From: Alphaproteobacteria bacterium
GTDB taxonomy: Bacteria; Pseudomonadota; Alphaproteobacteria; JAVJVX01
Direction of reading: 5' to 3'
Assembly: GCA_040220875.1 (NCBI GenBank)
Contig: JAVJVX010000003.1
Span: 324,969 to 388,968 of the forward strand
DNA length: 64,000 nt
Under the pieces are notes generated by a model. It did not search any database. It saw nothing but the letters and a program-made list of their open reading frames with translations, and was not told the origin of the DNA. The translations under genes and the position numbers were made by a program. This document shows positions 36,799 to 62,794 of this stretch, one piece after another. Every line of letters begins with the position of its first letter. Positions within the stretch are counted from its first letter, which is position 1.

Positions 36799-36860
36799 GG
36801 GGCGGATTTCTCCCGCGCCCTCCGCCCCCGCCGGCCCGGTGGCGGAGCCCGGGTGCGATA

Positions 36861-36889
36861 TTGACAGCGGCGGGGGGCGGGCCTATCAC
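36861..36889 (+). promoter_or_regulatory. Sigma70-like promoter for tRNA-Met
   Basis: A perfect TTGACA (36861-36866) and TATCAC (36884-36889) are separated by 17 bp of G-rich spacer. The -10 ends about 65 bp before the partial tRNA copy and about 140 bp before the complete tRNA-Met. Confidence 0.65.
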
Positions 36890-36956
36890 CACCTCCCGGC
36901 CGCGGCCGGGCGATGAAGCCGGCAGGCAGCCCCGCGCGCCCGCCGGGGCGATTTGG

Positions 36957-36998
36957 GGCGGAGTAGCTCAGCTGGTTAGAGCAGCGGAATCATAATCC
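36957..36998 (+). pseudogene. Truncated 5' copy of tRNA-Met
   Basis: 42 nt match the 5' part of the complete tRNA 70 bp downstream, with one difference (GCGGA against GTGGA in the anticodon stem). The copy includes acceptor 5' strand, D-arm and anticodon loop with CAT. It breaks off in the 3' side of the anticodon stem, after which unrelated sequence follows. It is probably the original gene's 5' half, cut by integration. Confidence 0.75.
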
Positions 36999-37027
36999 TG
37001 AGCTCAGGGAGATGGAAAATACAACTT

Positions 37028-37104
37028 GGCGGAGTAGCTCAGCTGGTTAGAGCAGTGGAATCATAATCCACGTGTCGGGGGTTCGAGTCCCTCCTCCGCT
37101 ACCA
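37028..37104 (+). tRNA. tRNA-Met (CAT), elongator type
   Basis: A complete 77-nt cloverleaf including encoded CCA. Acceptor GGCGGAG pairs with CTCCGCT (G-T at the end), the anticodon stem is GTGGA/TCCAC around loop ATCATAA, and the T-arm is CGGGGGTTCGAGTCCCTC-like. Sequence context fits the alphaproteobacterial elongator tRNA-Met rather than initiator or Ile2. The altered anticodon stem pair (T-A replacing C-G) is compensatory. The integrase gene begins downstream, so this is the probable attachment-site tRNA. Confidence 0.9.
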
Positions 37105-37145
37105 AATTCAATGACTTAGCGAGTGTCGCTTTGTCAACTTTGCGC

Positions 37146-37178
37146 AAAACCTCCGGTTGTCGTGCCGGAGGTTTTGTT
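37146..37178 (+). terminator. Rho-independent terminator after tRNA-Met
   Basis: AAAACCTCCGG (37146-37156) and CCGGAGGTTTT (37165-37175) form a perfect 11-bp stem with an 8-nt loop and a T-rich 3' end. The stem is usable on both strands, so it could also stop the leftward integrase transcript. Confidence 0.8.
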
Positions 37179-37368
37179 GTGTTGGGTAAATGAAATCGAG
37201 CTTCCGCCCACTATCACGAAAAACCCTTATTTTTCAACGCTTCGCAAATTTTCCGGATTCTCCGTTTGACATGGATTTGACATGCAAACGGCCGTTTGTG
37301 CCCGGTTTGTTCGAGCGCTCGGGTCCGGCTTGCGTGTCAAATTCGAAGGTGAAACAGGACAGGGTGAA

Positions 37369-38529
37369 TCAGGACAGAAGGATTTGCTCGGCGGCACGGG
37401 CGGCCGACTGCTCGTCCTGGAACTCGCGCCAGAGGTGACCGTATATATCCCATGTCGTCTGGATGCTGGCATGGCCCGCCCAAGTCTGCACCTGCTTGGG
37501 CATTGCGCCATTCTTGATCCACAGCGAGATTCCGGCGTGCCGTAAACTGTGCATGCCGAAGGGAGGCGTTTCGCCCTCCTTGATAATACCGGCTGCGACC
37601 AGAAGCGGGAGCCAGAGGCGATTGTAGTAATTCGCGTAGCTCTCGGCTTTCCCGGCGCCGTTCGCGAAGAGAAGATCGTCATCGCTCGGCGGACAGGCCA
37701 GCATCCAACGGCGCAGCGCCTTCACGGTGTGCGGACCAAGCGGAACATTCCGCACACTGCTCTTGGTCTTGACCCGTTGAAGCTGGTTCCACCGATCGGC
37801 CTTGCGCCGTATTAGAAGTTCCGGCGATGGTCCCTTAAGAATGACATGCTGCTTGCCGAGTGCCCTGAGCTCGCTGCTCCGGAGCGCCTGGAACAACAGC
37901 ACACTGACAAACGCTTCGGCGCGGCCGGTTTGGTCGTAGGTCCGCGCGGCCTTCAGAACCGCCTTCAAATCATCGAGGGGAGGGATATCCAAAGGCTCTT
38001 TATCCGCCTCCCAATCGGGCGCCGTGCGCACACCGACGGCGCGCGCCGGGTTGCTGCCGATCCAGCCTTGGCCCCAGGCGTAGTCGATCACCATACGGAA
38101 CGTCGAGAACACCCGCCGCGCCTGGTCGTCACTACGTTGGCTTTCCAGTTCCCGCGCATAAGCGACGCAGTCAGGACCGCTGAGCCTCGAAATCTTGAGG
38201 CCCGCGATATCGAATGGCAGCAGGTGTAGTCTGAGTAGCGACTCATAACCTTTCAGCGTGATGCGGCCGCGCTTGCCTGCCTTCACCAATTCTTCGAAAT
38301 CGCTCAGAAAGGCGCCAACCGCATCCGCGATCGTGATGCTGCGCTTGTCGGGAACATGCACGCCGATTGCGATTTCGCCTTCGATCCGGATGCGCTCATC
38401 GTCTGCGGCGCGACGGGTCGAAAACTGCTTTTGCTGCAGATTGCCGGCGCGATCGACATAGTTGAGCTGCCAGGCGGTCCGCCGCTCGCCCGTTTTTGTG
38501 GTCCATGTCCGCTTTCTGATCTTGGCCAT
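37369..38529 (-). CDS. Tyrosine-type site-specific integrase
   Basis: 386-aa phage-type recombinase that integrates and excises DNA at an att site. An N-terminal SAM-like core-binding domain (about residues 65-165) precedes the catalytic domain with R217 (ALRSSELRAL), H327-S-L-R330, H353 (AGHASI) and the nucleophile Y363 (DIYGHLW), all intact. Its 3' end is 265 bp from tRNA-Met, the usual layout for an integrase using a tRNA 3' end as target. It is probably the recombinase of the island or of one of several nested elements. Confidence 0.92.
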   Translation of the reverse strand: MAKIRKRTWTTKTGERRTAWQLNYVDRAGNLQQKQFSTRRAADDERIRIEGEIAIGVHVPDKRSITIADAVGAFLSDFEELVKAGKRGRITLKGYESLLRLHLLPFDIAGLKISRLSGPDCVAYARELESQRSDDQARRVFSTFRMVIDYAWGQGWIGSNPARAVGVRTAPDWEADKEPLDIPPLDDLKAVLKAARTYDQTGRAEAFVSVLLFQALRSSELRALGKQHVILKGPSPELLIRRKADRWNQLQRVKTKSSVRNVPLGPHTVKALRRWMLACPPSDDDLLFANGAGKAESYANYYNRLWLPLLVAAGIIKEGETPPFGMHSLRHAGISLWIKNGAMPKQVQTWAGHASIQTTWDIYGHLWREFQDEQSAARAAEQILLS

Positions 38530-38544
38530 GATCGGAGTCTGAAT

Positions 38545-38766
38545 CTAATCTTGATCAAGAACAAGGGTCTGGTGTTCGCGCTTCCTAAAGTAGGCTTCGA
38601 GCGAAGACTTCCGAGCGACAAGGCCGATACCCGGCTCGTTCCAGATCGGCATCAGACCGCGTTCGGCAAGGTGATAAACCCGCCGCGGCTTACAGCCGAG
38701 CGCATCAGCAATCGCTTTCGCGCCGCAAAGAAGGTCGCTGTGAAGCCCCATTTTTGGCTCTCCCAT
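38545..38766 (-). CDS. AlpA/excisionase-like small DNA-binding protein
   Basis: 73-aa protein with a helix-turn-helix like MerR/AlpA excisionases: GAKAIADALGCKPRRVYHLAERGLMP followed by a wing (GIGLVARKSSLEAYF). The start MGEPKM at 38766 is chosen since the longer frame adds no recognisable sequence. It lies 15 bp upstream of the integrase on the same strand, so it probably acts as recombination directionality factor or integrase regulator. Confidence 0.72.
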   Translation of the reverse strand: MGEPKMGLHSDLLCGAKAIADALGCKPRRVYHLAERGLMPIWNEPGIGLVARKSSLEAYFRKREHQTLVLDQD

Positions 38767-38950
38767 CCTATCCCTCCAATCGTCTCCAAATTCGTGAGAA
38801 AAACGGAATTGGGGTGAGGGAGCAGTATTTCGTGTGGAAATGGGCGACTCAATGATGGAGAAGGAAGCAATATCCAATAAGATTCTCTAAGCGTTGGCCA
38901 TGGTTTCTTTGCGATGGACGGTTATTCTTTTTAATTCCAGCCTCAGGAAA

Positions 38951-39097: not shown

Positions 39098-39566
39098 GAA
39101 CATCCTGATCCTGTGGCATCACGTGGCGCGCGTGGGCATTGCAGCCCAAACATGGCCGACCTCCGCCAAGCCCAGGAGATGGGCAGGCACGTCATGAAGG
39201 GCGAGCACGGCGAGACGGCCTGCCACGCCGACACCTTCATCCCCAAGGCCAAGCGCGAACGCGCCGCGCGGGACGGGGATGACCCCAAGCGCGTGCCCTT
39301 CCTCAAGCGTATAGCGCTTCACCTTGTTCAACGTCGAGCAGTGCGAGGGTCTGCCGGACGAGGCTTACGGGGGCACGTCGCCGCTTTCGGAAGCCGAGAT
39401 CATTCCGCATGCCGAGCGTCTGATCGAGGGGACCGGCGCAGACTTCCGTGTCGGTGGCACCGAGGCGTTCTATGTGCGGACCAAAACTTCATCCGCGTGC
39501 CTCCGCAGCCGGCTTTCTTCGAGCAGATCAACTACTACCGCACGTGCTTTCACGAACTCGGTCATT
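39098..39566 (+). pseudogene. Remnant of an ardC-like antirestriction gene
   Basis: This stretch closely parallels part of the intact gene at 53259-54242, beginning at CATCCTGATCCTGTGGCATCACG. It lacks the first third of the gene and ends inside the zinc motif, where HELGHWTGH becomes HELGHYADS. A frameshift near 39330 splits the frame. The 3' boundary coincides with one arm of the ATTATGCCGA inverted repeat (39564-39573), suggesting truncation by a mobile element. Confidence 0.8.
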
Positions 39567-39612
39567 ATGCCGACTCCAGGATTATGCAGCGCCGGTTGCT
39601 TACTCTGTTGGT

Positions 39613-39652
39613 GAGCAAGACTTTCCAGCACAGCATATCGGCATAATCAGAG
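39613..39652. repeat. 40-bp direct repeat, left copy
   Basis: Begins GAGCAAGACTTTCC and ends TAATCAGAG; 35 of 40 positions equal the right copy at 42315-42354. All five differences are A here and G there. It contains TCGGCATAAT (39638-39647), the perfect inverted partner of ATTATGCCGA at 39564-39573. Confidence 0.8.
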
Positions 39653-43291: not shown

Positions 43292-45493
43292 TCATGAATT
43301 CTCCGGACTTTTACGCAGGCGCAATAGCCGCAGCGCGTTGGCGACCACCAACAAGGAAGCGCCCGTATCCGCAGCGATAGCGCCCCAGAGCGTTGCGTAG
43401 CCGGCGAAGGTGAGCACGACGAAAACCGCTTTGACGCCAAGTGAAAAAACGATGTTTTGCTGAATGACAGCGAGCGTTCGTTTGGCGTGATGGATGAGCC
43501 AAGGAAGCTTCGAGATGTCATCGGTCATGAGCGCGACATCGGCGGTCTCAATCGCTGCATCGGACCCAATCGCGCCCATGGCGATGCCGAGGTTGGCGCG
43601 CGCCAGCGCCGGCGCATCGTTGACACCGTCACCGACCATGGCGACCGTGCCGTAGCGTGCGACAAGCTCTTCGATTTTCTCGACCTTGTCATCCGGCAGC
43701 AGCTCGGCATGCACCTCGTCGATGCCGAGATCGCGGGCGATGGCACTGGCCGTGACCCGGTTGTCGCCGGTCAGCATGACCACATGCCCAATGCCGGCGG
43801 CATGCAGTTGTTGCACGATTTCCCGCGCCTCCGGCCGGACCGTATCCGCGACCGCTATGAGGCCGCAGACATGCTGCGGGTTGCCGACGGCGATGACCGT
43901 TTTGCCGTCCGCCTCCAATGCTTCCGCCTGTTTGGCGATCTCGGGGGTGTCCTGACCGCGCTCGACGACATAGCGGTGGGAGCCGAGCCAGAACCGTTCG
44001 CCGTCGAAGGTTCCGGCCAGTCCCTTTCCCTTGAGGACTTGTACGTCGTCCGCTGGCGCAGGTGCGATTCCCCGCTGATCCGCATAGTCCAGAATTGCCT
44101 GCGCAAGAGGATGCGTGGAGCGCGCCTCAAGCGCTGCGGCGCGCGCCACGAGCTCGGCCTCGGTGTGGTTTCCGAGCGGGATGACCTGCGCCACGACGGG
44201 CTCGGCCCGCGTGATCGTGCCGGTCTTGTCCATGGCGATCGCCTTCAGGCGCGCGGGAAGCTCGATATAGGCGCCGCCCTTGACCAGAACGCCGGCGCGG
44301 GCCGATGACGCGAGTGCAGCGACGATGGAAACGGGTGTCGAAATCACCAGCGCACATGGGCAGGCGATTACGAGCAGAACAAGGGCACGATAGAACCAGT
44401 CGTCCCACGCTCCACCGAGCGCCAGCGGCGGTACCAAGAAAACGAAGAATGCAAGAGCCATGACCACCGGCGTATAGACACGCGCAAATCGTTCCACCCA
44501 TTGCTCCGAAGGAGCGCGCCGCGCATGAGCTTCCTCGACCATGCGGATGATGCGCGACAGCATGGTGTCCCCGGCCGCCTTGGTGGCTTCAACTGTGAGC
44601 GTTCCGTCGCCGTTGATCGTGCCGGCGAAGACCTCCGCGCCGATCGCCTTTTCAACCGGCACACTTTCGCCGGTGATGGGTGCTTGATTTACGGCGCTGG
44701 CACCGGCAACGACCCGCCCGTCCAAACCGATGCGCTCGCCCGCCGGAACGATGAAGCGGTTGCCCGGATTGACCTCGGCCACTGGCACGTCCGTTTCCGA
44801 TCCATCTGTGCGGAGGAGCAGCACCATGGGTGGAGCAAGATCGACAAGAGCGGCAATGGCACGGCGCGCCCGTCCGACGCTCCAGCTCTCCAGCGTCAAC
44901 GACAGTGCGAACAGGAATGCAACCGTCGCCGCCTCGAACCATTCGCCGATGACGATGGCGCCCGCAATGGCGACCGTCATCAAGAGGTTCATGTCAGGCC
45001 GTAGCCCGCGCGCTGCGTACCAGGCCTTAACGATAACGAAGTGGATGCCGAAGACGATCGCGAGGCCGTAGGCGATCATCTCGGGCAGAGGTACGGACTT
45101 CCCGTTATGGCCCGCGAGAAGCTGAATAGCCTCAGCCAATCCGCCCGCGAGCCAAATGTGAACGGCGAAACCCGCCACGACGAAGAGGCCACTCAAGCTC
45201 ATGAACCAGACTTGCTGCCGGCGACGGTCGCCCTTATCCCGCGCGCCTTTCTCCTCGGGACGCCATTCGACTGCCGCCATACCCGTTTGGCGAACGGCCC
45301 GACGGATCTGATCGACGGAGACCGGTGGAGCTTCGGCGAGCACTGTCATGCGGCCGTTCAAAACGTCGAATGCGAGATTGTCCGCACCGCCGACAAGCGG
45401 GCCAAGCTCGCGCCGGAGCACCGCCACTTCCTCGGCGCAATTGAGCCCTCGCACCTTGAAGGTCAGGCGGGACGCTTCAGGTGCGGGCGCCAT
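43292..45493 (-). CDS. P1B-type heavy-metal ATPase (Zn/Cd/Pb efflux)
   Basis: 733-aa ATP-driven exporter of divalent soft metals across the inner membrane. A degenerate N-terminal metal-binding domain carries one Cys in GLNCAEEV (C19) rather than CxxC. Core motifs are C378-P-C380 in helix 6, the phosphorylated D422-K-T-G-T, TGDN and GDGVNDAPAL. The last helices contain a Lys (GVKAVFV) and DTGASLLVVANALRLL, the set that defines the P1B-2 Zn/Cd/Pb subgroup. Its ATG shares one base with the stop of the PII-like gene, so it belongs to the czc operon. Confidence 0.92.
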   Translation of the reverse strand: MAPAPEASRLTFKVRGLNCAEEVAVLRRELGPLVGGADNLAFDVLNGRMTVLAEAPPVSVDQIRRAVRQTGMAAVEWRPEEKGARDKGDRRRQQVWFMSLSGLFVVAGFAVHIWLAGGLAEAIQLLAGHNGKSVPLPEMIAYGLAIVFGIHFVIVKAWYAARGLRPDMNLLMTVAIAGAIVIGEWFEAATVAFLFALSLTLESWSVGRARRAIAALVDLAPPMVLLLRTDGSETDVPVAEVNPGNRFIVPAGERIGLDGRVVAGASAVNQAPITGESVPVEKAIGAEVFAGTINGDGTLTVEATKAAGDTMLSRIIRMVEEAHARRAPSEQWVERFARVYTPVVMALAFFVFLVPPLALGGAWDDWFYRALVLLVIACPCALVISTPVSIVAALASSARAGVLVKGGAYIELPARLKAIAMDKTGTITRAEPVVAQVIPLGNHTEAELVARAAALEARSTHPLAQAILDYADQRGIAPAPADDVQVLKGKGLAGTFDGERFWLGSHRYVVERGQDTPEIAKQAEALEADGKTVIAVGNPQHVCGLIAVADTVRPEAREIVQQLHAAGIGHVVMLTGDNRVTASAIARDLGIDEVHAELLPDDKVEKIEELVARYGTVAMVGDGVNDAPALARANLGIAMGAIGSDAAIETADVALMTDDISKLPWLIHHAKRTLAVIQQNIVFSLGVKAVFVVLTFAGYATLWGAIAADTGASLLVVANALRLLRLRKSPENS

Positions 45494-45819
45494 CAGGACG
45501 CGTTTCCGTCGTCGATCGGATAGGCGCTTTCGATCTCGCTGACATAAACCCAGCCGGCGCTTGGTTGTCCGGTGCGCCCATTGTCGCGAATCAACGCCAA
45601 GGCCTGGTCGACCTTGTCCGCCTCGCAGACGAGTTCCACCTTCACCTCCGTGATGACTTTTTCACCGATCTCAATGGAATATTGCTGTTCCTGAGAATCG
45701 AGGGCTTTCAGCATACCCTTAACGTCGATCACGGAAATGTTCCGGAACCCTGCTGTCTTAAGGGCATGGACAACGTCAGCGATCCGGTTGCGGTGAATAA
45801 ACGCTTTAACTTCTTTCAT
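45493..45819 (-). CDS. PII-like signalling protein associated with heavy-metal efflux (PII-NG type)
   Basis: 108-aa ferredoxin-like fold protein resembling GlnB/GlnK: MKEVKAFIHRNRIADVVHALKTAGF opens it and DKVDQALALIRDN lies near the end. The T-loop is short and lacks the uridylylated Tyr context (RGxEY), and GRTGQPSAGWVYV replaces the usual GKIGDGKIFV. PII-like genes next to CusA/CzcA transporters are known as the PII-NG group; their ligand is not established. It lies 1 bp downstream of czcA and touches the ATPase gene, implying coordination of the two pumps. Confidence 0.85.
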   Translation of the reverse strand: MKEVKAFIHRNRIADVVHALKTAGFRNISVIDVKGMLKALDSQEQQYSIEIGEKVITEVKVELVCEADKVDQALALIRDNGRTGQPSAGWVYVSEIESAYPIDDGNAS

Positions 45820-45820
45820 A

Positions 45821-48800
45821 TTAGACCTCCTGCGATTCGAGCTGTCGGGCAGTTTCCACGGGTCGTGCCACGCGCGTCTCCATCCACTCATAGATGACGG
45901 GGAGAAGGACAAGGGTCAGCAGCGTCGAAGTGATCAGCCCGCCGACGACGACGGTGGCAAGCGGCCGCTGGGTTTCGGCACCGACACCTGACGACAGCAG
46001 CATGGGGATCAGGCCGAGGATTGCCACGCTTGCCGTCATCAGCACCGGGCGGAGCCTGAGTTCCGTTCCCCGTCGTACGGCTTCCCCAACGCTCAGTCCC
46101 TTTTCGCGCAATCCATTTATGAATTCGACGAGGACAATGCCGTTGAGCATGGCGACACCGAAGACCGCGATAAAGCCGATCGCCGACGGCACCGACAGAT
46201 ATTGCCCGGTGATGGCGAGCGAAATCAGTCCGCCGATGGTGGCGAACGGCACATTGGCGATGATCAGCGTTGCGTGGCGGATCGAGTTGAACGCGGTGTA
46301 CAGAAGGACGAAGATGAAAAAGATCGTCAGCGGTACGATGATCGAAAGGCGCGTGAGCGCGCGCTGCTGGTTCTCGAAAGCACCGCCCCATTCAATCCAA
46401 TAGCCGGGCGGCAATTCCACATTTTGCTTAATCGCCCGGTTTGCATCCTGAACAAAGCCGTCAATGTCGCGTCCGCGGACATCCATCTGGATTACCGCAT
46501 AACGCTGCAATTGCTCGCGCCGAACGAAGGAATAGCCCTCCGCCACCGACACGTCCGCGACACGGCTCAACGGAATAATCGCCCCATCGGCCGTACGCAG
46601 TGGGATCGCCTCGATCGCCTCGACGGAGGTTTTCGAGGAGTCCTGAAGCCGGGCCGTGATGTCGAATCGTTTGACACCATCGATAAGTGTCGAGACCGGC
46701 TCGTTGCCGATTCCGGTGCGGACGATAGTCAGAACATCATCAGCGTTAAGGCCATAGCGGGCGAGTTGCTCCCGGTCTACCTGAATCCGCACCTGCGGCT
46801 TGCCGAGATTGGCTTCGAGCGATAGATCGGCCACACCGGGGACCGAGGCGATCGCGTTCTTGATCTCTTGGCTCAGGCGATCGAGCTCGCCTAAATCCTC
46901 GCCGTAGAGTTTCGCCGCCAAGGTGGCGCGCACTCCTGAGATCAGTTCTTCCACCCGCATCTGGATCGGCTGGGTGAAAGCGATGACGGCGGTGGGAACG
47001 ACCTCTTCCAGTTTTTCGCGCATGGCGTCCGCCAGTTCCTCAATCGAGCGGCCCGACTTCCATTCCCCCTCGGGTTTCAAGGCGGTGTAGATCTCCATGT
47101 AGTTGACGTCGGCTGTCTCGCCCTTCTCGGCCCGGCCGATCATGGCGAGTGTGGTGTCAACTTCCGGGAATTCCGACAATGCCGCCGAGATGTCGTTCGA
47201 GACCTTGATCGACTGGTCGAGCGAGGTCGACGGAATCGACGTTACCCGCCACATGATTGAGCCTTCCTGTAGCTGCGGCATGAACTCTTTCCCAAGAAAG
47301 GGAAAAAGCGCGAGGCTGCCGATCAGCAGGATGCCAGCCGTCGCAACGACCTTTCGCTTGTTGGCAAGCGACCAGGCGAGCAGGGGCAGATACCCGCGCT
47401 TGATCCAGCGCACGAGCATGGTATCGCGCTCTTCCTTGGGCTTGAGGATGAGCGCCGCCAGGACCGGGATGATGGTCAAAGTGAGAAGCAATGATCCCGC
47501 CATGGCGAAGCTGATGTTGAAGGCCATGGGCTTGAAGAGCTTGCCTTCCAGACCCTGAAGACTGAAAAGCGGCAGGAAGACGACGATGATGATGAGGATG
47601 GCGAAGGCGATCGGACCCGCCACTTCGCGCGCGGCCGCCAGGACCGCCGCCGTCCGGTTCACCTCCTCGCCCTTGGCGCGCCATTCGGCCATGATGCGGA
47701 AGGAGTTCTCCACCATCACCACGGCGCCGTCGACCATCATGCCGATGCCGATGGCGAGCCCCGCCAGCGACATCAGATTGGCCGAGAGGCCTGCCTGCTC
47801 CATGAAGATAAAGGCGATCAGCATGGCAAGCGGAAGGGCGGCGATGACCACAAAGGCCGAGCGTAATTCGCCGAGGAACAGGAACAGGACGATGGCGACC
47901 AGGATCGAGCCTTCGATCAGCGCCCGTTCCGCCGTCGAGACGGCCTTCTCGACAAGTTCCGTGCGGTCATAGATCGGCTTCAGCGTGACGCCGTCAGGCA
48001 AGGCCTGTTCGGCGACCGAAAGCTTCTCCTTGACCGCATCGACCACGTTTTTTGCGTTCTCGCCGATGCGCGACAGCGCCATGCCAAGAACAACTTCCTT
48101 GCCGTCGCGCGTCACCGCGCCGAAGCGCAGCGATGGCGCCTGTACGACCGTCGCCACGTCCCGCAAATAGACCGGCGTGCCGTCCTCGACCTTGAGGACA
48201 ATGCTGCCGATATCGCGCTCACCATCGACGAGACCGAGGCCCCGGACCAAAAACTGCTCTGGTCCCTGATCGATATATTGCCCCCCGACCTGACGGTTGT
48301 TGGCCTCGATCGCCTCCATCACATCGCGGTAGCCGAGCTTGTATTTAATGAGCTTCAGGGGGTCGATCTGCACCTGATACTGGCGTTCCTGGCCACCCCA
48401 GGACATCACGTCATCGACCCCCGGCGCGGTCCGCAAGATGAGGCGGATCGACCAGTCCTGCAGCGTGCGCAGGTCCATGTCGGTGATGTCGCCGGCCAGC
48501 TTTTCATCGGCGCGTTCGAGCGTGTACCAGAACACCTGACCGAGGCCGGAGGTGTTGGGGCCCATCGCCGGCGTGCCATAGCCCTCGGGGATGCGGTCGC
48601 GGACTTCCGCCAGCCGCTCCATGATGAGGCGGCGGGCGAAATAGATGTCCACATCGTCCTCGAAATAGACCGAAACGTAGGAGAGGCCGAACAGGCTGAC
48701 GGAGCGGATCTGCTCGACATCCGGAAGACCCGCCATGGCGGATTCCACTTGGAAGGTCAGCAATTGTTCCACGTCTTCGGCCGCCAGCCCCGGCGATTCC

Positions 48801-48952
48801 GTATAGATATTGACCTGCACCGGCGTCACGTCGGGAAAGGCATCGATGGGCACGTTCGTGACCGCGCGCCAGCCGAGAAAACCGATCACCAGAAAGACAA
48901 TGATCACAAGAAATTTGTATTGAAGCGAAAGTTCGACGAGCTTGTTCAACAT
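45821..48952 (-). CDS. czcA: Heavy-metal RND efflux pump, inner-membrane component (CzcA/CusA family)
   Basis: 1043-aa proton-driven trimeric pump. Twelve membrane segments flank two large periplasmic loops. Typical points are the N-terminus LQYKFLVIIVFLVIGFLGWRA, the PIDAFPDVTPVQV stretch, and the HME-family helix 4 region MMVDGAVVMVENSF. The helix 4 sequence AIGIGMMVDGA lacks the DFG of classical Co/Zn/Cd pumps, so metal choice is uncertain. Length is normal (about 1040). With the adaptor and outer-membrane genes upstream it forms a complete tripartite efflux system. Confidence 0.93.
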   Translation of the reverse strand: MLNKLVELSLQYKFLVIIVFLVIGFLGWRAVTNVPIDAFPDVTPVQVNIYTESPGLAAEDVEQLLTFQVESAMAGLPDVEQIRSVSLFGLSYVSVYFEDDVDIYFARRLIMERLAEVRDRIPEGYGTPAMGPNTSGLGQVFWYTLERADEKLAGDITDMDLRTLQDWSIRLILRTAPGVDDVMSWGGQERQYQVQIDPLKLIKYKLGYRDVMEAIEANNRQVGGQYIDQGPEQFLVRGLGLVDGERDIGSIVLKVEDGTPVYLRDVATVVQAPSLRFGAVTRDGKEVVLGMALSRIGENAKNVVDAVKEKLSVAEQALPDGVTLKPIYDRTELVEKAVSTAERALIEGSILVAIVLFLFLGELRSAFVVIAALPLAMLIAFIFMEQAGLSANLMSLAGLAIGIGMMVDGAVVMVENSFRIMAEWRAKGEEVNRTAAVLAAAREVAGPIAFAILIIIVVFLPLFSLQGLEGKLFKPMAFNISFAMAGSLLLTLTIIPVLAALILKPKEERDTMLVRWIKRGYLPLLAWSLANKRKVVATAGILLIGSLALFPFLGKEFMPQLQEGSIMWRVTSIPSTSLDQSIKVSNDISAALSEFPEVDTTLAMIGRAEKGETADVNYMEIYTALKPEGEWKSGRSIEELADAMREKLEEVVPTAVIAFTQPIQMRVEELISGVRATLAAKLYGEDLGELDRLSQEIKNAIASVPGVADLSLEANLGKPQVRIQVDREQLARYGLNADDVLTIVRTGIGNEPVSTLIDGVKRFDITARLQDSSKTSVEAIEAIPLRTADGAIIPLSRVADVSVAEGYSFVRREQLQRYAVIQMDVRGRDIDGFVQDANRAIKQNVELPPGYWIEWGGAFENQQRALTRLSIIVPLTIFFIFVLLYTAFNSIRHATLIIANVPFATIGGLISLAITGQYLSVPSAIGFIAVFGVAMLNGIVLVEFINGLREKGLSVGEAVRRGTELRLRPVLMTASVAILGLIPMLLSSGVGAETQRPLATVVVGGLITSTLLTLVLLPVIYEWMETRVARPVETARQLESQEV

Positions 48953-48963
48953 GATCTATCTCC

Positions 48964-50139
48964 TTAGTGCCCGTGGCCTTCGCCCATCTGGGATTTCTGG
49001 ATGAGCGACTTGAGGAGAAAGACCTCAGTCGTCGCGATTTCATCGTCCGTGCTCAGACCGGCCGCGACCTCAACCCAGCCGCCGCGCGTCACACCGGTCT
49101 TAATCGCCGTCGGGTGAAGTTCGTCGCCTTCGACTTTGAAGACGGTCGGATTTCCGTCCATGAGCGTGACGGCCGCCTCCGGTACGGCGAGCGCTTGTTT
49201 GCCATCACCGACTCCAACCGCAACGCTGACATATTGGCCGGGATGTAGCTCGTCGCCCGCATTGTCGACCTCGACACGGATCGGCAAGGTGCGCGTCGTC
49301 TCGTCAAGCGTGTGGTGGACCTGAACGATCCGGCCGCCGACCGCGTGGTCCTTGTCAATCAGAATACGGACAGACGAGCCGACCTCGGCATGAGCAGCCT
49401 GATCGGGCGTAAGCTGGGCTTGCACCCACACCCGGCTTTCATCCGTGATCTGAAACAGCACGCGCCCCGCATCCACGACTTCGCCGACAACGAAATCGTC
49501 CTTGACAACCGTACCGTCCTGCGGAGCCAAAAGATCGAATGTCCCAGTCGCTTTAGAAGCGTCACCGTTTTTGACCAGTCCCCCTATCTGCTCCGGTGTC
49601 ATGCCGAAAGCTAAGAGCTTGGCGCGTGCCTGCTCAGCAGCCACCTGCGCTTCCACATAACGCCGCTCGGAAACGACCTCACGTCCCAGCTCGCGCACGC
49701 GGCTCCATTCGCGCGTGGCAACGATCAGGTTTCCTTGCGCATCCGCCATCTCGACGCTGGATAAGGTGACAAGCGCTTGTCCGGCCTTCACATGGTCCCC
49801 AAGCCTTGCCTGCCGGGCGACAATTTGAGCGGATATTCTCGGTGCAATCTGCGCCGATCGGTATAGATCGAGCGTTACCTCACCCGGTACAACGGCTTCG
49901 TCGGTGAGGACCCGCAAGTCCACGGGCGCCGTGGTGACGCCCTTTGCCTTGCGATCGGCGGCGGTCATTTCGACGACACCGCCTTCTTCATGCTCCTCGC
50001 CGTGCTCAGTCTCTTGCGAGGCTGGAGCAGCGACTTCATTCTTTGCATTCGGCGATTGATTGATCAGCGCGAAAGCGGCGCTGGCGATGATGATCGCGAT
50101 GGCTGCACCGCCTAAGGACAATTTCATTTTCCTGGTCAT
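48964..50139 (-). CDS. czcB: Heavy-metal efflux RND periplasmic adaptor (CzcB-like)
   Basis: 391-aa membrane fusion protein linking the RND pump to the outer-membrane channel. The start MTRKMKLSLG at 50139 overlaps the czcC stop by 4 bp. An N-terminal membrane anchor (residues 9-28) is followed by an acidic/His patch (EHGEEHEEGG), then lipoyl, hairpin and beta-barrel domains (PRISAQIVARQARLGDHVKAGQ, FDLLAPQDGTVVKDDF). The C-terminus GEGHGH is His-rich. These His patches suggest metal capture in the periplasm. Confidence 0.92.
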   Translation of the reverse strand: MTRKMKLSLGGAAIAIIIASAAFALINQSPNAKNEVAAPASQETEHGEEHEEGGVVEMTAADRKAKGVTTAPVDLRVLTDEAVVPGEVTLDLYRSAQIAPRISAQIVARQARLGDHVKAGQALVTLSSVEMADAQGNLIVATREWSRVRELGREVVSERRYVEAQVAAEQARAKLLAFGMTPEQIGGLVKNGDASKATGTFDLLAPQDGTVVKDDFVVGEVVDAGRVLFQITDESRVWVQAQLTPDQAAHAEVGSSVRILIDKDHAVGGRIVQVHHTLDETTRTLPIRVEVDNAGDELHPGQYVSVAVGVGDGKQALAVPEAAVTLMDGNPTVFKVEGDELHPTAIKTGVTRGGWVEVAAGLSTDDEIATTEVFLLKSLIQKSQMGEGHGH

Positions 50140-51398
50140 TGGATATTCTCCACCCATTCGCTGATCGCGGCGGAAGCTTCCAGCCAGTCGAACCATGTGG
50201 TCCAGAGACGGCCCTTGAGCTCAACACCGGCGCTCTCCGTTGCGAAGGTTTGATTGAGTTGAATGATGTAATCGACGGCGTCGATTTCGCCGGCTTCCCA
50301 CAGCCGCTGCAGGAGCGCGCGTTGTTCTTCTAGCGGCGCAGCCCCTTGGGCGGTCCAGGCTTGCCAAGCGCTGAGCGTCGTCTCGTAGCGCCGAAGGCTT
50401 GCGGTAAGCCGTGCTTCAACCCTGCGTCTCAAGTCACGGTAGCTTTGCTCTCTCGCGATCGAACCAGCCCTGGCGGCGTCGACTTCGGCGCTGTACGTGT
50501 TGCGAATGGGCAGGGGAATGGACAGCCTTACCCCGAATAGTGTCGAAGACTCTCTTTGCCCAAATGGATCGAGTGCGCTTCGCTCTTCACCAACTTTGAC
50601 GCCTAAGGTCGGGTCAGGTATGCGATTCCGCTTCGCCACGCTGATGAAAGAGCGCGCCGCTTCTGTATCGGCCTGCGCCGATTGAAGTTCCGGCAGCGCC
50701 TCGACATTCACTACATCGATTGAGGGGCGCTTTTGCGGAGGTGAACCGGTAAGCGGCGGCGGTGGAGGCATCACGCCGCCAACGACGGCGATCAGGCGTT
50801 CCTCCGCTTGCGAGAACTCGATGCTTGCCGTGCTCGCCGCAGCTCGTGCTTCAGCCAGAGTCAATCGGGCCGTCAGCAGGTCCGATTGCGGCAGGTCGCC
50901 CGCGCGATTGCGCCGTTCGGCAAGCGCAAGGAACTCTTCGTCTAGCCTGACACGTTGCTCGGCTATGCGAACTGCGTCTCGGCGCGCCTGATAGTCCGAT
51001 AACGCAATAAGGAGATTAGCGAGGATCGTTTTGCGCGTGATTGCGAACCGCGCTTCCGCGGCGACCACCTCGGCCGTGGCGACATTGGCACGCGCGCGCC
51101 GTTTGCCGCTGAGATCGAGCGTCTGCGATAGGCCGACCGACTTTGAATTGTCGAGCGCTTCCTCGTATTCAAGCTCTATCTCGGGATTGTAGAGCGGCTG
51201 CGCTTGGCCGCGTGCCTGGGCGCGCGCGGCATCCAATTCGGCCTGGGCTTGACGCAGGGCCGGATGATCGCTCAGGACGCTGAGGGCAAATTCCCTGAGC
51301 GCTATGTCCGGTGCAGCGCTCTCCTGCGCTAAGCCGGGCTCAGCAAGCCAAAGGCTCGCGATGACAGCGCCGAAAAGCGCCAGTTTTTGGCATTTCAT
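50136..51398 (-). CDS. czcC: Heavy-metal efflux outer-membrane channel (CzcC/TolC family)
   Basis: 420-aa outer-membrane efflux protein. A signal peptide (residues 1-24, ending GLAQE) precedes two repeated helical TolC domains: ALRQAQAELDAARAQARGQ, later QSYRDLRRRVEARLTASLRRYE. Length fits CzcC/CusC. It couples translationally to czcB and forms the outer-membrane exit of the pump. Confidence 0.9.
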   Translation of the reverse strand: MKCQKLALFGAVIASLWLAEPGLAQESAAPDIALREFALSVLSDHPALRQAQAELDAARAQARGQAQPLYNPEIELEYEEALDNSKSVGLSQTLDLSGKRRARANVATAEVVAAEARFAITRKTILANLLIALSDYQARRDAVRIAEQRVRLDEEFLALAERRNRAGDLPQSDLLTARLTLAEARAAASTASIEFSQAEERLIAVVGGVMPPPPPLTGSPPQKRPSIDVVNVEALPELQSAQADTEAARSFISVAKRNRIPDPTLGVKVGEERSALDPFGQRESSTLFGVRLSIPLPIRNTYSAEVDAARAGSIAREQSYRDLRRRVEARLTASLRRYETTLSAWQAWTAQGAAPLEEQRALLQRLWEAGEIDAVDYIIQLNQTFATESAGVELKGRLWTTWFDWLEASAAISEWVENIQ

Positions 51399-53258: not shown

Positions 53259-54242
53259 ATGATGCCAGAAACTGCAAACGCAGCGACACGCGGAAAACAC
53301 GGGAGAAAGAGACGCGAACGGGCGGGCGGCGCAGCCAAGCCCTCCCTCTATGACGAGGTGACGAGCCACATCATCGCCGAGCTTGAGGCGGGCCGCGCGC
53401 CTTGGGTGCAGCCTTGGGGCGCGCCGGGCGCGAAGAAGGCGGGGCTCGGCCTGCCCAAGAACGCGCTCACGGGCCGCACCTATTCGGGCGTTAACATTCT
53501 GATCCTGTGGCATCACGTCGTGCGTGCGAGCTTCGCGACGCAAACATGGCTGACCTACGCCCAAGCCCAGGAAATGGGCGGCCACGTCATGAAGGGCGAG
53601 CGCGGCGTCACCGCGTGCCACGCCGATACCTTCATTCCCAAGGCCGAGCGCGAGCGGGCCGAGCAGGACGGCGACGAGCCGGGGCGCGTGCCGTTCCTGA
53701 AACGCTTCACCCTGTTCAACGTGGAGCAATGCGAAGGCCTGCCGGAAGACGCTTACGCAGGTGCGGCCCCGTTGCCAGAAGCCGAGATCATTCCGCACGC
53801 CGAACGCCTCATCGCAGCGACGGGAGCGGACTTCCGCATTGGCGGAACGAAGGCTTTCTATGTGCCGAGCCAAGACTTCATCCGCGTACCGCCACAACCC
53901 GCCTTCTTCGAGCAGGTGAACTACTACCGCACCTGCTTTCACGAGCTTGGCCACTGGACCGGCCACGAGACGAGACTCGCCCGCGACCTGTCCCATTCCT
54001 TCGGATCGAGACCCTATGCCCGCGAGGAACTGGTCGCGGAGATGGCGAGTGCCTTTGTCTGCGCTTCGCTCAGCATCGCACCCACCGTTCGGCACACGGA
54101 CTATATCGGCTCATGGCTTGAAGTCTTGAGAGAAGAAAATCGCGCGATCTTCCGCGCGGCGAGCCAAGCCTCCAAAGCCGCCGATTTCATCCTCGCCTTT
54201 CGCGACGCCGAAAAGGCCGTGACGGCGGAGGCGACAGCATGA
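53259..54242 (+). CDS. ardC: ArdC-like antirestriction protein (DUF1738 + zincin domain)
   Basis: 327-aa element-encoded protein. The N-terminal ArdC-type ssDNA-binding domain (about residues 28-150: SLYDEVTSHIIAELEAG, PWVQPWG, NALTGRTYSGVN) is followed by a metallopeptidase-like domain with H228-E-L-G-H232-WTGH. ArdC proteins protect incoming plasmid DNA from restriction. A broken second copy lies at 39.1 kb. It overlaps the next small gene by 4 bp (ATGA). Confidence 0.88.
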   Translation: MMPETANAATRGKHGRKRRERAGGAAKPSLYDEVTSHIIAELEAGRAPWVQPWGAPGAKKAGLGLPKNALTGRTYSGVNILILWHHVVRASFATQTWLTYAQAQEMGGHVMKGERGVTACHADTFIPKAERERAEQDGDEPGRVPFLKRFTLFNVEQCEGLPEDAYAGAAPLPEAEIIPHAERLIAATGADFRIGGTKAFYVPSQDFIRVPPQPAFFEQVNYYRTCFHELGHWTGHETRLARDLSHSFGSRPYAREELVAEMASAFVCASLSIAPTVRHTDYIGSWLEVLREENRAIFRAASQASKAADFILAFRDAEKAVTAEATA

Positions 54243-60802: not shown

Positions 60803-62794
60803 ATGGCCGATGATACCGACGACATTTTCAAGCCGAAGCTCGGGCGCATTCGCAGCCTGGGCGGCGCGCGCACGAAGAGCTACTTGGGTCGCGTGCTCCG
60901 GCAGGTCTCGAAGGCAGGCAAGTCCGGTTTCGGAACCGGAGCCGCGTCACGGCGCTATTCCGGCTACCGGATCGGGCGCGGCAATGACGTACTTCGGCGT
61001 GGTCGCGCCGGACACCGCTTCGGACCGACCTATCGGCGCGTCGTCATCAAGACGCGGATCGTCAAACTCAGAGGCGGCGGCATTGATGCCGCCCGAGCGC
61101 ACCTTCGCTATATCCAACGCGATGGAGTCTCCAGGGAGCACGAGCCGGGCCGGCTCTATGACGCCGCCCAAGACGAGGCGGACGGCAAGGCGTTCCTCGA
61201 GCGCAGCGACGGCGACCGGCATCAGTTCCGTTTTATCGTCTCGCCGGAAGATGCGACCGCGCTTGCCGACCTCAAGCCATTCGTCCGCGATCTGATGAGC
61301 ACGATGGAGAAAGACCTCGACACGCGGCTTGACTGGGTGGCGGTCGATCACTTCAACACCGAGCATCCGCATACCCATATCGTGCTCCGGGGCAAGGACG
61401 AGCTCGGCAAGGACCTTGTTATCGCCCGTGACTACATCGCCCACGGCATGCGGGCGCGGGCGAGCGAACTATTGACGCTGGAACTCGGGCCGCAGACCGA
61501 GCAGGAACTCCGGCAGAAACTGGAACACCAGGTTGAGCAGGACCGTTTCACCGATCTTGACCGGGCGCTGGTCCGCGACGCCGTGGACGGCATCGTGGAT
61601 GCGCGTGCCGAACCGCAGCGTCCCGACGCACGGTTCCGCCATGCTATGAAGATCGGCCGGCTGCACGTGCTCGCGCGGCGAGGCCTCGCCGAGGAGATGG
61701 AGCCGGGTCGATGGCGGCTCTCGCCGAAACTGGAGGAGACCCTCCGGCGCGCGGGCGAGCGTGGCGACATTATCAAGACTATGCACCGGGGACTGCGGCA
61801 GGCCGGACTCGATGCCGGCGCTACGGAGTATTCGATCTACGATCCCGCCGACCTGCGCGCGCCAACTATCACCGGTCGGATCATCGACCGCGGGCTCCAC
61901 GACGAGCTGAGCGACGGCCACTACGTCATGATCGACGCCGCCGATGGGCGGGTTCACTACGTCGCACTCGATCCACGGCAGGAGATGGAGGACTTGCCGC
62001 TCGGCGCCGTCGTCGAGGTTGGACCGGCGGCAGCCGGAATAAAGCCGTCCGACCGGACCATCGCCGAGATCGCCCGACGGAACGACGGCCTCTACACGAC
62101 GGACGCCCATCACGCATTTGATCCGCGTGCATCGGAGGAGTTCGTTCAGGCGCACGTCCGCAGGCTCGAAGCGCTGCGCCGCGCCAACGTCGTTCGGCGC
62201 TTTCCGGATGGGTCATGGGAAGTCCCCGAGGACCTCGAAGACCGGGTTGAGGCGCTCGCCAAAAAGCAGGCGCGATATCCGGGCCGCATCACGACCCTGT
62301 CGTTTCTGTCCCTTGAGGCTCAAGTCAATGCCGACGGCGCGACTTGGCTGGACCGGCAGCTTCTCGCCAAAGAACCGGCGACGCTACGCGGCGAGCGCTT
62401 CGGGGCCGAATCTGCCCAAGCCCTGCACCGGCGCCAAGAGCATCTCATGGAGCAAGGGCTGGCGGAGCGTGACGGAAAGACAATCCGCTACCAACGCAAT
62501 CTCCTTCGCGCGCTGCGGCAACGGGAGTTGGCGGCCGCCGGCGAGAAACTCGCCAAGGAGACGGGATTTGCCTTCGTGGAAACACGGGACGGGGATCGGA
62601 TCGATGGCGTCTACAAAAGGCCTATCCATCTCGCCAGCGGCAAGTTCGCCATCATTGAGAAATCAAAGGAGTTCACGCTCGTTCCCTGGCGGCCGGTCCT
62701 CGAACGCCAACGCGGAAAGCTGGTCGGCGGCGTCATGCGCGGGTCGTCGATGTCGTTCGATTTTACGAAGAAACGCGGGATTGGAATCGGGTGA
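60803..62794 (+). CDS. VirD2-like relaxase, DUF3363 family
   Basis: 663-aa DNA-nicking transfer protein. The catalytic region contains Y103 (LRYIQRDG), H140 (DRHQFRFIVSPED) and the metal triad in VDHFNTEHPHTHIVL (H183-H192). The C-terminal two thirds are the DUF3363 domain (DRGLHDELSDGHYVMIDAADG; final WRPVLERQRGKLVGG). It defines the element as mobilisable or conjugative. Mating-pore genes are not in the window and may lie to the right. Confidence 0.9.
   Translation: MADDTDDIFKPKLGRIRSLGGARTKSYLGRVLRQVSKAGKSGFGTGAASRRYSGYRIGRGNDVLRRGRAGHRFGPTYRRVVIKTRIVKLRGGGIDAARAHLRYIQRDGVSREHEPGRLYDAAQDEADGKAFLERSDGDRHQFRFIVSPEDATALADLKPFVRDLMSTMEKDLDTRLDWVAVDHFNTEHPHTHIVLRGKDELGKDLVIARDYIAHGMRARASELLTLELGPQTEQELRQKLEHQVEQDRFTDLDRALVRDAVDGIVDARAEPQRPDARFRHAMKIGRLHVLARRGLAEEMEPGRWRLSPKLEETLRRAGERGDIIKTMHRGLRQAGLDAGATEYSIYDPADLRAPTITGRIIDRGLHDELSDGHYVMIDAADGRVHYVALDPRQEMEDLPLGAVVEVGPAAAGIKPSDRTIAEIARRNDGLYTTDAHHAFDPRASEEFVQAHVRRLEALRRANVVRRFPDGSWEVPEDLEDRVEALAKKQARYPGRITTLSFLSLEAQVNADGATWLDRQLLAKEPATLRGERFGAESAQALHRRQEHLMEQGLAERDGKTIRYQRNLLRALRQRELAAAGEKLAKETGFAFVETRDGDRIDGVYKRPIHLASGKFAIIEKSKEFTLVPWRPVLERQRGKLVGGVMRGSSMSFDFTKKRGIGIG

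Follow-up and report, generated by a model that had tools for sequence, protein, structure and literature searches.

A 56.7-kb integrative and conjugative element that very probably splits and replaces a host tRNA-Met gene in an alphaproteobacterium

Tandem tRNA-Met locus and displaced host 3′ half

The window, which is the whole 64,000-nt stretch of DNA analysed here (G000:C3:324969-388968), is part of a 99% complete alphaproteobacterial genome of 2.5 Mb in 9 contigs. At positions 36957-37104 it contains, in this order, a 42-nt copy of the 5′ part of a tRNA-Met gene, a 29-nt spacer (36999-37027) and a complete tRNA-Met(CAT) gene. The two copies of the 42-nt repeat (36957-36998 and 37028-37069) are 41/42 identical and start 71 bp apart. 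One complete tRNA-Met(CAT) is called, at 37028-37104 by ARAGORN and at 37028-37101 by Rfam. Neither program calls a tRNA in the 5′ copy (36957-36998), and the copy together with the spacer yields no tRNA call. Within the tRNA, the 5′ copy extends to position 42, which belongs to the 3′ strand of the anticodon stem. Its single difference from the 5′ part of the complete gene is at position 29, which pairs with position 43 and is C in the short copy and T in the complete gene. A first-pass annotation of this DNA had described a 42-nt 5′ copy ending in the anticodon stem with a whole gene 29 bp further on, and the repeat, ARAGORN and Rfam all agree with that description. The features of the locus, numbered from the first base of the window, are:

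36861..36889, + strand, candidate host tRNA-Met promoter, TTGACA-17-TATCAC (10/12 consensus), ending 67 nt upstream of the 5′ half
36957..36998, + strand, 5′ half of the split host tRNA-Met, positions 1-42, attL side (pairs with G000:C3:418630-418673)
36990..36998, + strand, putative attL common core TCATAATCC, crossover region in the anticodon loop/stem, common to attL, attR and the rebuilt host tRNA
36999..37027, + strand, 29-nt element spacer from the core to the carried tRNA (22/29 identical to the spacer of locus L017, equal length)
37028..37104, + strand, complete element-carried tRNA-Met(CAT) (ARAGORN; Rfam RF00005, 65.1 bits; 21/21 cloverleaf pairs)
37061..37069, + strand, second core copy in the carried tRNA, apparently unused, 71 bp from the used core and 204 bp from the P′ arm
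37145..37176, no strand, 12-bp perfect inverted repeat CAAAACCTCCGG/CCGGAGGTTTTG after the carried tRNA, possible terminator

When the 77-nt tRNA was compared with the whole genome, seven matches were obtained, and the gene in the window is the only one of full length. The 42-nt copy is another, and a 3′ part of 44 nt lies at G000:C3:418630-418673; the remaining four, which are weaker, comprise three other tRNAs (Thr, Asn and Lys) and a 32-nt 3′ fragment of tRNA-Thr type. The 44-nt part lies outside the window; it begins with TCATAATCC, continues with GCGTGTCGGGGG and runs up to the CCA end. The TCCGC strand of its stem is complementary to GCGGA in the 5′ copy and mismatched to the complete gene, which has GTGGA/TCCAC. 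These three sequences bear out the compensatory stem change that had been proposed for the complete gene. Joined at the shared 9-bp TCATAATCC, the two halves form a complete tRNA-Met. A hybrid of the host 5′ part and the carried 3′ part has one broken stem pair, yet ARAGORN calls it tRNA-Met.

The two cores are separated by 56,672 bp. As the halves join at the shared core, the crossover is placed in the anticodon loop/stem, and the element is the DNA between the cores. The attB overlaps the host tRNA gene, both host halves being found at the element ends, and the 9-bp core is too short to rebuild a tRNA. An ordinary restoring attP is not matched here, in that the used attL core is followed by 29 nt of unrelated spacer and not by a 3′ tDNA fragment. 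Judged from the sequence of the two ends, the event is an anticodon-loop crossover with an attP that lacks the usual restoring 3′ half at its used core. The first-pass annotation had suggested that the host tRNA was split and replaced by an element-borne gene, and this holds: the stem of the displaced half matches the 5′ copy, and the adjoining arm repeats are shared with the right ends of four relatives. It had also set the locus against integrations that duplicate the 3′ end. Of that contrast the split and replacement stand, and an integration that duplicates the 5′ end does not, since the 3′ half is displaced as well.

A second tRNA in the same contig shows a similar configuration. A complete tRNA-Thr(TGT) gene at L012:5890-5964 (− strand) is accompanied by a displaced 3′ fragment of the same tRNA at L012:4039 to about 4084 (− strand), about 1.85 kb away. 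The pair corresponds to G000:C3 about 460038-461964, and their anticodon stems again differ by one base (AACCAG and AACCGG). The tRNA-Thr(TGT) gene and its fragment are probably a remnant of another anticodon-loop island.

Genes of the element

Genes for an integrase, a relaxase, a coupling protein and type IV secretion all lie between the two att sites. The main features inside the left end and in the body of the element are:

37265..37285, + strand, putative P′ arm-type direct repeats TTTGACATGGATTTGACATGC; the doublet is found in 6/7 integrase-family loci including the window
37369..38529, − strand, tyrosine integrase, 386 aa (PF00589, 2.2e-14)
38545..38877, − strand, small helix-turn-helix protein, candidate excision factor by inferred role (HTH_17 20.5 bits, below the cut-off of 27)
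43292..51398, − strand, heavy-metal efflux cargo: P-type ATPase, CusA/CzcA RND pump, membrane-fusion and outer-membrane proteins
60803..62794, + strand, RlxS-type relaxase (DUF3363) (PF11843, 7.7e-134; RlxS 829 bits, just below the cut-off of 850)

Also inside the element are genes for ArdC, ParB and TraG, and the secretion proteins match T2SSE, TrbC, TrbE/VirB4, TrbL, VirB8 and CagX (TrbB/C/E/L/F/G-type). A full ArdC-like gene is present at 53259-54242, and a partial second one at 39113-39646 predicts 177 aa with pieces of both ArdC domains. The right end, outside the window at L009:395-11162, contains DruA, DruD and DruE of Druantia type I, and a gene for an AbiEi-like protein (L008:15556-16383) lies before the Druantia type I genes in the right-end cargo. 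The 954-aa protein predicted between DruA and DruD has no match.

Thirty-five of 50 chosen island ORFs were given to Pfam, and no phage structural family is among the matches of these 35. On its gene content, we read the inserted DNA as an integrative and conjugative element (ICE). With conjugation genes and without a phage structural family, it is not a case of 'lysogeny' in the strict sense.

Integrase relatives, attachment sites and origin of the arrangement

A search of genome contigs with the integrase found 7 loci in 5 genomes. In a sample of the class, 2/385 genomes had the integrase at E 1e-60, namely the window's own genome and that of L017 (G100). A sample of one order gave 1/61 at E 1e-70 (L014), and a sample of another order gave 2/297 (L013 and a new locus, L102, in genome G882). 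Relatives of the integrase are present in seven genomes including that of the window, and the tRNA-Met junction is readable in six of them. More distant matches are one plasmid record with 35% identity and four phage records with 25-30%. Among viral contigs there were 37 matches to the integrase pattern, none confirmed by tblastn, and the spacer pattern is absent from the viral contigs.

Two genomes, those of the window and L017, have the replacing form. The L017 locus consists of a 42-nt host half (GGCGGGG...TCATAATCC), a 29-nt spacer that shares 22/29 positions with that of the window, and then a complete tRNA-Met; its displaced 3′ half, L059, is on another contig of the same genome. The tRNA carried at L017 is 11 positions off the rebuilt host tRNA, and 6/6 of the stem pairs touched are still paired. 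The same geometry with a different tRNA sequence shows that the arrangement was inherited with the element and that the tRNA was kept foldable. The existence of a homologous tandem with identical 29/42-nt geometry in a second genome also places the tandem beyond chance.

In the ordinary form, found in three genomes, the tRNA directly at the junction is complete and the displaced 3′ half is at another place:

L013, with displaced half L054 (another contig)
L014, with displaced half L055 (another contig)
G882, with displaced half L105

At L015, the complete tRNA is 100% identical to the one carried in the window and the integrase piece is 95% identical. There is neither a 5′ copy nor a displaced half with the core at L015, only a 31-nt 3′ fragment (L061), and the right end breaks off after the arm repeats. 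At L016 the contig ends at the junction. The integrase frame is broken in L016 and L017, and the L014 integrase is without an internal stretch; on their sequences some of the relatives, including the second replacing element, L017, may be immobile or dead copies.

Several further observations were made at these loci. The bases downstream of the 31-nt 3′ tRNA fragment L061 are as in L015, and MAG PL25a_bin.107, which contains L015, has two more integrase C-terminal ends at contig borders (L018 and L019), which suggests that it holds several copies or remnants of the element family. In G882, tandem displaced 3′ halves (L105 and L106, G882:C1:3044106-3044153 and 3051942-3051985) downstream of one complete tRNA-Met represent two stacked islands. 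In G041 and G001, partial 3′ matches follow complete genes on the downstream side, like ordinary displaced halves, and such matches are present also in G091, G060 and G027. Partial 5′ matches in G050 and G069 were rejected as split halves; one is a complete but divergent tRNA, the other a tRNA located at the end of a contig. The inverted repeat at 37145-37176 received no call in a terminator scan. Inspection by eye showed a similar hairpin-like sequence at the corresponding place in L014, L015 and L017; in L015 and L017 the stretch that matches 37145-37176 differs in sequence and is, by eye, still self-complementary. It is possibly a terminator shared by the tRNA and the integrase.

The arm-type repeats of the integrase family include the motif TTTGACATGNATTTGACATGC, and L016 has a single left repeat instead of the doublet. 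With at most 1 mismatch allowed, the left doublet was found in 0/288 other sampled genomes of the class and in the window genome only (1/289). On the right side, two TTGACAT repeats are located at −59 and −48 from the core in 5/5 right ends read, with one of the repeats in L055 being TTGATAT. The left repeat TTTGACATGNATTTGACATG of both replacing elements lies at a distance of 275 bp from the used core; the core in the carried tRNA is nearer to it, at 204 bp. Elsewhere the left repeat is 203 bp (L014), 203 bp (L015), 194 bp (G882) and 148 bp (L013) from the tRNA core. Because the distance from the P′ arm to the carried core is near that in the canonical relatives L014 and G882, the replacing attP looks like an ordinary attP, judged by its layout, with the addition of a 71-bp unit made up of the 29-nt spacer and the 5′ tRNA half.

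Taken together, a 56,672-bp ICE has very probably split the host elongator tRNA-Met gene at the anticodon loop, and the complete gene that it carries replaces the lost one. The tyrosine integrase would insert the ICE in the anticodon loop of the host gene, for which one full-length copy was found in the genome. The attL would retain the host 5′ half and the attR, 56.7 kb away, the host 3′ half, and the ICE would bring a complete tRNA-Met 29 bp inside its left end and in the same direction.

The replacing attP may have arisen from an ordinary attP with a 3′ half by gain of the 71-bp unit (a 29-nt leader and the 5′ half), possibly when an aberrant excision took up an entire tRNA gene together with its leader. 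A comparison of the spacer with 35 tRNA-Met leaders revealed no source: the best match is 14/29, and the best matches of 200 shuffles average 12.8 and reach at most 18. In the opposite direction, the replacing form would be ancestral and the ordinary form would arise by core-by-core deletion of the 71-bp unit; L015, the tRNA and integrase piece of which are so close to those of the window, could then be a deletion product of homologous recombination between the 42-nt copies, and its right end is broken after the arm repeats. We consider this direction possible and the less probable one. The distances from the P′ arm to the tRNA core in L014 and G882 are near the 204 bp of the carried core, with L013 at 148 bp, and these distances in ordinary forms are explained without any deletion. 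An integrase tree of 6 sequences, with L014 left out, does not fix the direction. On the attachment-site sequences we favour gain of the 71-bp unit; the direction is not proven.

Accretion in two steps is very improbable. In this scenario an older element, since deleted, left the 5′ half and 29 bp, and ordinary restoration of the tRNA came with the present island. Islands do stack at the same tRNA: in G001 and in G882, one complete gene is followed downstream by several displaced 3′ halves. However, the L017 spacer has an equal length of 29 nt and 22/29 identity, which points to inherited element DNA and not to a chance deletion scar. An ordinary attP also carries no 5′ half, leaving the second 5′ half unexplained, and the displaced half and the 5′ copy match each other.

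The high identity of the two copies (41/42) would fit a native tRNA gene that was duplicated locally or misassembled, with no connection to the island, an explanation that is hardly credible given a 3′ half with the matching stem at the opposite island end, a compensated stem difference, and the same tandem in an independent genome with a different tRNA sequence. Written as a pattern, the tandem was recovered in both known cases (2/7 genomes with a relative of the integrase) and in 0/384 genomes sampled from class Alphaproteobacteria. Island-free relatives with the same tandem, which would have counted against the earlier proposal, appeared neither in that sample nor among 29 fetched relative tRNA-Met loci, none of which has a second tRNA start within 300 nt upstream (L032, with 22 nt upstream, is unjudgeable). 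Chance, local duplication, misassembly and the remnant of an older element are accordingly rejected on the displaced half, the L017 spacer and the compensated stem.

Expression, anticodon stem and known systems

The promoter candidate at 36861-36889 has a score that 0/1000 base shuffles reach. The best promoter matches upstream of all 16 chosen tRNA-Met loci are 8-11/12. A stricter promoter scan did not include this candidate; its single hit in 36800-37200 is on the minus strand. In the 71 nt of half and spacer, the best plus-strand promoter match is 7/12, reached by 748/1000 shuffles, and no plus-strand promoter-like site was recognised in the spacer (36999-37027). As the host promoter is the sole good plus-strand candidate in the integrated state, we infer read-through and processing. 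The host promoter upstream of the 5′ half would read through into the carried tRNA, RNase P would free the tRNA from the read-through RNA, and integration without the carried tRNA would be expected to be lethal, with which the single full-length match in the genome agrees indirectly.

Folding of the read-through RNA predicts, for both genomes, that the 3′ acceptor strand of the carried tRNA is taken by the orphan 5′ half. The correct acceptor stem has a mean pair probability of 0.00 and 0.01 in the read-through RNA, compared with 0.97 and 0.98 in the tRNA alone, and the D arm of the carried tRNA is likewise lost in the predicted fold. The prediction counts against simple read-through, in which the RNA could misfold; kinetics or the order of processing would have to prevent this. 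In the circular form, the arm repeats give promoter-like matches of 9 and 10/12 upstream of the carried gene, which are reached by 188 and 39 of 1000 shuffles, respectively, so that the carried gene may be expressed before integration too.

The carried anticodon stems are GTGGA/TCCAC in the window and CCGGA/TCCGG in L017, compared with GCGGA/TCCGC in the host. The stem was surveyed in 35 tRNA-Met loci, 32 of them other than the window, L017 and L015; they are mostly best matches to the tRNA of the window and not a random set. GCGGA/TCCGC is found in 24/32 of these best-matching loci (in L046 it is printed one base out of register) and another stem in 8/32. One of the eight, L040, has GTGGA/TCCAC, which refutes the notion that the GTGGA stem is peculiar to elements. 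The idea that the stem change prevents an RNA misfold was also rejected, as the folds of half, spacer and tRNA are nearly equal with the carried and the host tRNA.

The altered stem might be an adaptation that stops the integrase at the second core, 71 bp away, where recombination would mean loss of the unit and a mismatched hybrid. Both carried tRNAs depart from the host in the stem that flanks the core, the hybrid of host 5′ and carried 3′ parts loses one stem pair in each of the two cases, and the stem departed from is the commonest in the survey. Nevertheless, we regard this protective role as doubtful. There are two cases only, a quarter of the other loci have a different stem, one of them the same as in the window, and at L015 the integrase lies beside a GTGGA tRNA, so the stem may be usable. 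ARAGORN calls both hybrids tRNA-Met, the change does not reduce the predicted misfolding on read-through, and foreign origin alone may account for the difference.

A broader and more speculative proposal, which we think rather unlikely as a whole, is a promoter-trapping swap. The spare tRNA would be without a usable promoter until correct integration places it behind the host promoter, providing a built-in check on survivable insertion; the stem would be altered so that the integrase ignores the second core; and one integrase family would use both modes, with a 71-bp step between them.

Ordinary and replacing forms use one tRNA target and arm sites that resemble each other, and what sets them apart is a 71-bp unit, which makes the transition testable. 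The principle is seen here in a conjugative element that bears metal efflux and anti-phage genes, and the locus illustrates how foreign genes can take the place of essential tRNA genes of a host. Programs that look for islands by a restored tRNA and one fragment could misread such loci. In the Islander collection, a 3′ fragment is recorded in 3760/3919 islands and a 5′ fragment in 159 (PMC4383910). The element resembles ordinary anticodon-loop islands in its loop crossover, tyrosine integrase and displaced 3′ fragment at the far end. Unlike the islands described there, its used core is followed by 29 bp and a whole gene, and the 5′ half is orphaned (PMC4383910).

Among ICEs, those of the ICEPmu1/ICEMh1 type in Pasteurellaceae use the anticodon loop and are described with a tRNA-Leu disrupted at both ends and an intact copy at the ICE end (PMC6028734). 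In ICEMh1-PM22, a disrupted tRNA-Leu copy lies upstream of a full-length one, and the intact copy is also explained by completion at attL (PMC6861422). ICEApl1, of another Pasteurellaceae subfamily, is reported to restore its tRNA from a 66-bp repeat (PMC4908127). Judged by their descriptions, ICEPmu1 and ICEMh1 may be ordinary restorers. Their target is tRNA-Leu, in another bacterial class, whereas the target here is tRNA-Met. In Sinorhizobium meliloti, the central part of tRNA-Leu(UAG) is disrupted by prophages in 2 cases, and the prophage tRNA of the same isotype resembles genes of other species more (PMC11476347), while phiLM21-like prophages restore the tRNA (PMC12429752). That case is alphaproteobacterial like the present one; however, it concerns prophages and tRNA-Leu, and the available text describes no tandem of a half and a whole gene (PMC11476347).

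The closest parallel is tRNA-dependent lysogeny in actinobacteriophages (Guerrero-Bustamante and Hatfull 2024, PMC10865867), in which a core of about 10 bp cannot rebuild the tRNA and the phage tRNA is of the same isotype. The Boilgate integrase, related to that of Fionnbharth, restores the tRNA normally, and the evolutionary relation of tRNA-dependent lysogeny to ordinary restoration is called not clear (PMC10865867). The two systems have in common a tyrosine integrase, a tRNA attB, a short core, an element tRNA of the same isotype and putative arm-type sites (PMC10865867). Unlike the actinobacteriophages, the element here is an ICE, not a phage, in an alphaproteobacterium (PMC10865867). Its spare tRNA is 29 bp from the core and in line with the host promoter, whereas the Fionnbharth tRNA is described as overlapping with an oppositely oriented protein gene and having its own strong promoter (PMC10865867).

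An ICE version of tRNA replacement is at least partly in print already. In the open-licence literature, to the extent that its texts were available, no account was found of an element that places its spare tRNA directly after the crossover and under the host promoter; phages aside, none was found of a single integrase family with both states. Against that partial body of text, what appears to be new here is that the spare gene sits behind the host promoter, 29 bp past the crossover and with no promoter recognised in the interval, and that one integrase family has both states.
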